From assembly GCA_022710245.1 (NCBI GenBank), contig JAKLHH010000405.1, positions 1 to 6,907 of the forward strand: a stretch of DNA of 6,907 bases. Direction: 5' to 3'. The DNA is from Myxococcota bacterium (GTDB lineage: Bacteria; Myxococcota; Polyangia; GCA-2747355; JAKLHH01). Of this stretch, positions 1,057-2,454 are shown piece after piece (position 1 is the first letter of the stretch; every line of letters starts with the position of its first letter). A program made the translations under genes and the position numbers. Under the pieces are notes generated by a model, which saw nothing but the letters and a program-made list of their open reading frames with translations, was not told the DNA's origin and made no database searches.

Positions 1057-1102
1057 GGCCACCTCCGCCCGCGGGGGCGGACCCGTGTAGGGACGGGTGG
1101 CC
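1057..1102 (-). other. Compact three-way-junction-like inverted-repeat element after the small ORF
   Basis: On the minus strand this 46-base element has outer arms GGCCACC and GGTGGCC, an inner hairpin ACCCGT-CCCTAC-ACGGGT, and a second inner hairpin TCCGCCC-CCGC-GGGCGGA. The arms share a few bases, so the best joint fold keeps about 4 outer pairs, 6 pairs in the first hairpin and 6 in the second, with almost no unpaired bases. It begins three bases beyond the TAG of the 57-residue small gene. No run of U follows on either strand, so it is not a standard intrinsic terminator. It may protect or define an mRNA 3' end, be a structured RNA, or act as DNA (cruciform or protein site). The inverted repeats are certain; the role is inference. 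Confidence 0.7.
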
Positions 1103-1105
1103 TAC

Positions 1106-1279
1106 CTAAACTCGAAAATCCACGATGACGACGCCGCGCTCGACCTCATCTTCTTCCTCACGCACCCTCCGATCCTCGTCGTCCGGCTCCTCAAGTGGAA
1201 TCTCGAGCACAGGCCGGTCATCCCGCTGATCCTGATCTTCGCGTCTGCGAATCTCTTCGATGATCCATGGATCCAGCAT
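1106..1279 (-). CDS. Small acidic protein, 57 residues, unknown function
   Basis: ATG at 1277-1279 and TAG at 1106-1108 enclose 57 codons. A Shine-Dalgarno GGAGA (1286-1290) lies six bases before the ATG, which supports the start. The protein begins MLDPWIIEEIRRRE, has a proline-containing middle with PVLEIPLEEPDDED, then a charged run and ends ERGVVIVDFRV. It is extremely rich in Asp, Glu and Arg, with hydrophobic residues concentrated at the N-terminus (a probable amphipathic helix) and in a short C-terminal beta-like strand. It has no Cys, signal peptide or membrane segment, so it is presumably cytoplasmic. I have a recollection of similar small DPWIIEEI...ERGVVIIDF-type hypothetical proteins in other bacteria but know no function for them. 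The frame carries GC-rich third positions less strongly than the operon genes. A structured element follows directly, and a candidate promoter lies about 190 bases upstream, so it appears to be a self-contained unit. Confidence 0.7.
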   Translation of the reverse strand: MLDPWIIEEIRRREDQDQRDDRPVLEIPLEEPDDEDRRVREEEDEVERGVVIVDFRV

Positions 1280-1426
1280 TGGGTTTCTCCGGCACTTCTT
1301 GCCTTATTCCGTGCAACCAGCACGCCAACTGTACCGAGCCTCCCGTGTGTTCGGGCCGAAAGCGAGATTCAGCAGCAAATTCAGCCTGCATTCACTCACC
1401 TTCGGGTTATGTCTCTTTCCTCCGTG

Positions 1427-1551: not shown

Positions 1552-1561
1552 CGTCGCCAAC

Positions 1562-1581
1562 AAAAATGGCGCAGCGAGCGC
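1562..1581 (-). terminator. Weak candidate terminator of the lipid A operon
   Basis: On the minus strand GCGC-TCGCT-GCGC (1569-1581) is followed after two bases by TTTTT (1562-1566), about 100 bases beyond the lipoprotein stop. The stem has only four pairs, so it would be a poor intrinsic terminator. No better hairpin followed by a T-run was found between 1560 and 1680. The GGGCCGGCCC palindrome at 1672-1681 overlaps the stop region but has no loop and no T-run. Confidence 0.25.
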
Positions 1582-1680
1582 ACACCTGGGGCAATCAGTC
1601 CCGAGCGCGCTGGTGACGGAAGGCCCGATCTCGACGGAATCTGCGTCCGCACCGTCCAGGATCCGGTCCAGGGGCCGGCC

Positions 1681-2454
1681 CTAGTCCGGATCCTCGATCT
1701 TCCAGATCCCGTCCTCGCGCACGAACCTCACCTCGAACTTCTCCCCGTAGGGCATGTTCGCCGTGTCGCCTGCTACATGTATCGGCGCGTTGAGGTTCGC
1801 CTTGAGGTTCTTGATCAGGCTGCCGACCTCGTCCTTCTTCTGCCCTTCCCACTCCTGGCGGAGCTTCTCGACCGTCATGGTCTCGGCCCACTTGGCCGGG
1901 ACGAAGCGCAGGACGATGTCGTAGCGGCGGCGCTCGAGGGCGCGGACGAAGGAGCGGAGCGCGTCGGCAGGCGTGCGCTGGCTGTAGAAGTCGGTCGGGT
2001 CCGTCGCGATCTTCCAGGCGCCGTTCTCGACCACCAGCTTCAGGCTGTCAGCCTCGGCCAGCTCGACCCGCGCCTCCACCTGGACCTCGGTCGCCTTGGC
2101 CTGGAGCTGCTTCATGCTCGCCTGCACGTCCGCCGGGTGCTCCCTGAGCATGCGGGCGAACTCCTTCTTGTCGTAGCGCTTGCGGTAGGCCTCCGACATG
2201 AGCTCGTAGGCGCGGTCGACCTTGCCCGCCAGCACGGCCTCGGCGTAGGCCGTGAGCGCGTCCTCGGGTCGCGCCGAGGTCGTCGCGGGCGCGGGGCAGC
2301 CAGCGCCCCCGAGCAGGAGCAGGCCGAGCGTGAGGCTCGCGAGTATTGCTCCCGTGGGGCGAGGGTGTGGGCGAAGGCGCGCAGCGCCGGGGGAGGGGGC
2401 AATCCCCCGGAGGGCAATGTCGAAGTCACGATCAATTGTCGTGTACGTCATCAT
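1681..2454 (-). CDS. Probable lipoprotein with two tandem NTF2/DUF4878-like domains
   Basis: The gene encodes 257 residues and starts at the ATG of an ATGA overlap with the gene before it, with GGGAGA a few bases upstream, so the two are translationally coupled. The hydrophobic stretch GAILASLTLGLLLLGGAGC ends in Cys53, which resembles a lipoprotein signal, although the residue at -3 is Gly rather than the usual Leu. After it come two similar halves: residues about 62-152 (PEDALTAYAEAVLAGKVDRAY ... ENGAWKIATDP) and about 160-257 (PADALRSFVRALERRRYD ... REDGIWKIEDPD). The pattern of two helices, then strands ending in G(A/I)WKI, is that of small NTF2-like or DUF4878-type folds often found in bacterial lipoproteins. 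This assignment is by pattern only. The first 35 residues are oddly long and charged for a signal peptide and overlap a repeat-like DNA element at 2345-2418. It is probably anchored in the envelope; its function is unknown. Confidence 0.85.
   Translation of the reverse strand: MMTYTTIDRDFDIALRGIAPSPGAARLRPHPRPTGAILASLTLGLLLLGGAGCPAPATTSARPEDALTAYAEAVLAGKVDRAYELMSEAYRKRYDKKEFARMLREHPADVQASMKQLQAKATEVQVEARVELAEADSLKLVVENGAWKIATDPTDFYSQRTPADALRSFVRALERRRYDIVLRFVPAKWAETMTVEKLRQEWEGQKKDEVGSLIKNLKANLNAPIHVAGDTANMPYGEKFEVRFVREDGIWKIEDPD
2345..2418. repeat. Repeat-like palindromic insert in the 5' end of the lipoprotein gene
   Basis: ATTGCTCCC (2345-2353) and GGGGGCAAT (2395-2403) are imperfect inverted repeats that enclose GGCGC-GCA-GCGCC (2376-2388). 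A second GGGCAAT copy ends at 2418. The interior, with GTGGGGCGAGGGTGTGGGC, resembles the CACCCTC-CCCC type of dispersed extragenic repeats seen in many proteobacteria. Here it lies inside the coding frame and adds about 20 residues (IAPSPGAARLRPHPRPTG) ahead of the signal-like segment. Only one copy is visible, so the assignment to a dispersed repeat is inference. Confidence 0.35.

Follow-up and report, generated by a model that had tools for sequence, protein, structure and literature searches.

The 6,907-nt stretch of DNA from a Myxococcota bacterium that we analyzed (hereafter, the window; contig JAKLHH010000405.1) contains a 57-codon ORF that, judging from sequence comparison, is a real and conserved protein gene, with similarity to its relatives clearly above chance. 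In the window's clade, this small gene carries a putative promoter of the sigma-54 (-24/-12) type. We give a probability of roughly 0.55 to the reading that the ORF is a gene of its own, encoding a small protein that is acidic, mostly disordered and probably cytoplasmic, that it is expressed from the sigma-54-type promoter, that the protein acts as a partner-dependent adaptor or regulator, and that a 3' hairpin ends or protects the transcript.

The small gene and its protein family

The gene lies on the minus strand at 1106..1279 (ATG at 1279, 57 codons and a TAG ending at 1106), and a Shine-Dalgarno sequence, GGAG, can be read at 1287..1290 (minus), 7 nt 5' of the ATG. These features agree with a preliminary description of the window, as does the acidity of the product (pI 4.2, net charge -12). 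The C-terminal segment given there, ERGVVIVDF, is present, but the true C-terminus runs on to ERGVVIVDFRV. The N-terminus had been called amphipathic; its moment (0.39) does not exceed the mean for shuffles of its own residues (0.43), and an amphipathic helix was rejected. The GC3 of the ORF is 0.62, versus 0.91-0.99 in the five complete upstream genes of the window.

A search of 5.8 billion proteins returned 276 matches to the window protein at E <= 1e-3, self included, the best non-self match having an E value of 1.9e-20; a sister sequence and a third-type sequence, used as queries in the same search, gave 1055 and 166 matches, respectively. The organism names among the best 120 matches of each query are Deltaproteobacteria, Polyangia, Labilithrix, Myxococcales and Bradymonadia, in each case with the annotation hypothetical protein. 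In a sample of 377 genomes from the phylum of genome G008 (Myxococcota by label), matches at E <= 1e-3 were found in 239 genomes with alignment A3 and in 225 with alignment A2; weak matches among these may be due to chance, because the middle of the protein is rich in charged residues. There is usually one match per genome among the matches listed for this search.

We read the DNA of 120 members, namely 104 loci, including the window, and 16 more, three of which are on putatively viral contigs. Twelve repeated loci (L016, L017, L110, L111, L112, L114, L115, L120, L123, L126, L129 and L131) were left out of the counts, as were L132-L135, which are wider cuts of loci already counted. Members are 52-68 aa long, and the pI is below 6 in 117 of the 120. 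An alignment of 63 members shows M1, I7 and I10 to be invariant, with near-invariance at L2, I6, R13, E14, P28, R48, G49 and V50. Of 839 member pairs that share 60% identity or more, 21 have dS <= 0.57. For the 14 of these that are 90% identical or more, omega spans 0.00-0.13, and for the remaining 7 it spans 0.34-0.69; it should be noted that these values are biased low by the choice of pairs on identity. As estimated from these alignments, change between close relatives is mostly synonymous. Of the checks named in the preliminary description, homologues and purifying selection were both found, the latter on relatives, as pairs including the window protein are too divergent for dS.

The family is undescribed, with no curated family in the libraries searched. 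The window protein had no Pfam or NCBIfam match over the curated cut-off; the 63 members gave three single weak Pfam matches, none credible, and no NCBIfam match. A PDB profile search returned one match (E 0.5) and no credible relative, and Foldseek found no match to the AlphaFold model of the window protein. This model has two helices, at 4-20 and 34-47, and lacks a tertiary fold (pTM 0.29); the sister protein is modelled with a helix at 4-21, no helix like the one at 34-47 and, likewise, no tertiary fold (pTM 0.31). The models suggest that the window protein is mostly disordered, although low AlphaFold confidence does not prove disorder; the protein is probably cytoplasmic. No published description of it was found at the title and abstract level in the literature searched. 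In IMG/VR, 3 of 37 pattern-matching stretches encode relatives (L106, L107 and L108, at 5001) on putatively viral contigs. A phage origin of the family was considered on this basis, with inspection of the ORFs of these contigs, but was not adopted.

Promoter types in the window and across clades

The candidate promoter, TTGGCGTGCTGGTTGCA (1312..1328, minus), was recognized by the rarity of its motif in the window and by recurrence in the clade. The pattern TGGC-N7-TTGCA has one copy in the 6907 bases, both strands considered (1312-1327, minus), versus 0.01 expected, and its TTGC ends 33 nt 5' of the ATG. The sigma-54 consensus is TTGGCACG-N4-TTGCA; the GG-N10-GC core is present in the window's site, with 2 mismatches in 13 positions. 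Transcription is predicted to start near 1301, 12 nt past the TTGC, which would leave a leader of ~22 nt, just holding the Shine-Dalgarno sequence. A scan of 600-1760 in the window revealed no sigma-70 consensus site (0.2 expected). An inverted-repeat search of 1280-1690 for possible enhancer-binding-protein sites gave one overlapping palindrome, at 1589-1626, ~260 nt upstream. The small gene is separated from the genes before it by a weak candidate for a terminator-like hairpin with a T-rich tail, ATTTTTGTTG (1558..1586, minus), represented by two overlapping matches, with 0.7 such matches expected by chance in the scanned stretch.

The clades were defined by an N-terminal motif after the sequences had been seen: the window type (n = 41), the sister type, PPF (n = 62), and the third type, DAY (n = 17). 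The tree groups the 41 window-type rows with weak support (83/81), the alignment having too few columns, and it should be noted that window-type loci were chosen by likeness to the window. When 104 loci were pooled, a crude sigma-54 score separated them weakly from shuffles (33% versus 11% at score 18) until the clades were taken separately. In the 150 nt before the start, 25 of the 41 window-type loci carry the loose pattern GG-N8-TTGC, and 16 do not have a site in this range; in the same loci, other GG-TTGC spacings occur in 3.4 loci on average (maximum, 9), compared to a mean of 1.8 (maximum, 7) in shuffles. With one member per lineage, the pattern is found in 14 of 26 lineages, and other spacings in no more than 6. 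Random 150-nt stretches of window-type loci contain it in 85 of 1434 cases. The strict pattern GGC-N7-TTGCA is present in 19 of the 41 loci, versus 13 of 1434 random stretches, and in none of the 62 PPF or 17 DAY loci. Conversely, the sigma-70 pattern TTGAC-N14-18-TAnnnT was detected in 28 of 62 PPF loci, versus 1 of 2251 controls, and in none of the 41 window-type loci; the 17 DAY loci have neither this pattern nor the strict one. However, GG-N8-TTGC is also raised in PPF (17/62 versus 68/2251), which speaks against a clean split.

Given sigma-54-type sites in the window's clade and sigma-70 sites in the sister clade, the same small gene seems to be under different sigma factors. A rival explanation accepts the gene as real but takes the -24/-12 match to be incidental to a sigma-70 promoter, the TTGC letters also forming part of its extended -10. 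It draws on the sigma-70 pattern of the sister clade, where in some loci both patterns overlap on one TTGC, and on some window-type loci that retain TTGAC upstream of GGC; on the other hand, the complete sigma-70 pattern is missing from all 41 window-type loci, the 600-1760 segment of the window has no sigma-70 consensus site, and the strict sigma-54 pattern is confined to the window's clade. We consider this explanation unlikely, and prefer a sigma-54-type promoter, on the grounds of sequence and recurrence; the preliminary description had mentioned a candidate promoter. The shared TTGC is possibly both the -12 box of the sigma-54 site and the extended -10 of the sigma-70 site.

The rpoN gene was found in each of the 15 genomes searched, all of them from relatives. 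Sigma-54 promoters require an enhancer-binding (activating) ATPase; therefore, expression of the small protein would be conditional, on a signal. The window's site resembles the sigma-54 promoters reported for envelope genes in its GG-N10-GC spacing, its TTGGC and TTGCA boxes, and the adjoining lipid A genes; the difference is that it precedes a gene for a small orphan protein.

The folded element 3' of the stop codon

A GC-rich hairpin, predicted to fold as a three-way junction, occupies 1057..1102 (minus) and is read as a terminator-like 3' end. The 46-nt stretch folds at -28.9 kcal/mol (z -2.5; 2 of 200 shuffles are as stable), whereas for the first 80 nt past the stop codon z is -1.3; the stability of the fold is only mildly above chance. 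The three-way junction and the absence of a U-tract (no T-run follows the hairpin in the window) are as the preliminary description had them, whereas two details had to be corrected: 12 of the 46 bases are unpaired, rather than almost none, and the element begins three bases past the TAG, not two. Between the hairpin and the next ORF there are also a 43-bp tandem repeat (5.4 copies, 747-977) and a GGAGCTGA-type 8/17-bp repeat (984-1049).

The expected recurrence of the element downstream of related genes failed. A BLAST search of the 46-nt sequence against the fetched loci found no counterpart (best foreign E, 0.36), Rfam gave no match at 1057-1102 and one weak match elsewhere (E 0.35), and 3 of 40 window-type loci, counting the window itself, are predicted to form a junction at this position. 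Stable structure of varied kinds is general in the family: the mean z of downstream stretches is -0.87, versus -0.07 for random stretches, and z is below -2 in 25 of 103, versus 10 of 208. At least four T occur in 22 of the 103 stretches, and many relatives have plain hairpins, unrelated to that of the window, some with T-runs. That the junction is a functional RNA (a small RNA or a regulatory 3' UTR) working with the protein could be argued from its z value and its compact shape directly 3' of the stop codon; given the failure to find it in Rfam, in the sequences of the fetched loci or in most of the clade, and given that varied downstream structure is what terminators would be expected to leave, we regard this as improbable. 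The element is most simply read as a terminator, or as a hairpin at the 3' end, that has been rebuilt in each lineage. Similarly to intrinsic terminators, the window's hairpin is GC-rich and lies directly past a stop codon, and some relatives add the T-run; unlike such terminators, the window's hairpin is a three-way junction without one.

A short ORF followed by a strong hairpin is also the layout of a leader peptide that governs a downstream gene by attenuation. However, both ends of the protein are conserved, yet the downstream gene varies or is convergent, so that a leader peptide is very hard to sustain, and we retain the reading of an independent small-protein cassette. This proposal of the preliminary description is borne out by family conservation, mostly synonymous change, a predicted promoter of its own and the 3' hairpin.

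Neighbourhood and proposed role

The gene order in the window is Skp-like (by sequence reading), lpxD, fabZ, lpxA, a PPC-domain gene, an NTF2/MecA_N-like lipoprotein gene and the small gene. The Pfam-identified MecA_N/NTF2-like protein (1681..2454, minus; 257 aa) is probably a lipoprotein, with a lipobox by reading. Homologues of all six preceding genes are present in L132, L133, L001 and L005, and 30 of the 41 window-type loci have a lipoprotein homologue no more than 1.5 kb upstream, compared to none of the 60 PPF and 15 DAY loci with enough sequence. In other types, the small gene adjoins MoxR-, DUF58-, SDR- or enhancer-binding-protein-like genes, as named by their sequences. In one subclade (L041, L066, L076, L082, L085, L088 and L092), an enhancer-binding-protein-like gene lies ~20 nt 3' of the small gene; GAFTGA is present in 6 of these 7 ORFs, and the L041 ORF is cut. 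Such ORFs also occur within 3 kb in L005, L006, L015 and L019, as a raw count. Identification of a partner by neighbourhood was rejected, as neighbours vary by clade. A 205-aa ORF that runs off the window edge (1-615, minus) gave no match in Pfam or, by tblastn, in the 12 loci examined.

The small size and acidity of the protein would also suit the antitoxin of a toxin-antitoxin pair. Against this stand the variable neighbours, with no constant adjacent toxin in 104 loci when ORFs of 80 aa or more are compared (a toxin gene below 80 codons would escape this comparison), the usual single match per genome among the matches listed, and the broad presence in one phylum; we consider an antitoxin highly improbable.

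Because the protein is small and acidic, is conserved at both ends and lacks a predicted fold, action through partners is most likely. Upon a signal, an enhancer-binding ATPase would activate expression from the sigma-54-type promoter. The conserved N-terminal helix (MLDPWIIEEIRRRE) and the conserved hydrophobic C-terminal segment, RGVVIVDF, would each dock on another protein; between them runs a variable acidic linker, in which an RPxLE-PL patch is conserved, and the small protein would thus act as an adaptor or regulator through its partners. The hairpin past the stop codon would end or protect the transcript. MciZ, SidA and Sda are small partner-dependent regulators; the window protein is likened to them in being tiny and in its presumed action by docking on a partner, and differs in that its family is much wider within one phylum.

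Since the small gene follows lipid A and outer-membrane genes, its role in the window's clade is perhaps in an envelope-related response. Two papers touch on this: one describes sigma-54 as a controller of the bacterial exterior (PMC3162934), and the other names the lipid A enzyme COG0774 as one of the groups enriched for sigma-54 in Myxococcia (PMC12316311). The latter also reports that M. xanthus does not survive deletion of rpoN. The envelope tie comes from one clade, because other clades have the small gene beside other genes; it amounts to a guess, based on the neighbouring genes and the sigma factor of the window's clade alone. More tentatively than the main reading, and with considerable doubt, we suggest that an undescribed adaptor, kept by much of the phylum, has switched between two sigma factors, sigma-70 and sigma-54, possibly at a single site via the shared TTGC core, and in the window's clade is now signal-gated beside lipid A and outer-membrane genes.

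The clade-specific promoter types offer a natural, testable case of sigma-factor change on one small gene. Matched in 239 of 377 genomes of its phylum and lacking a curated family, the protein family clearly invites genetic work in relatives that can be cultured.
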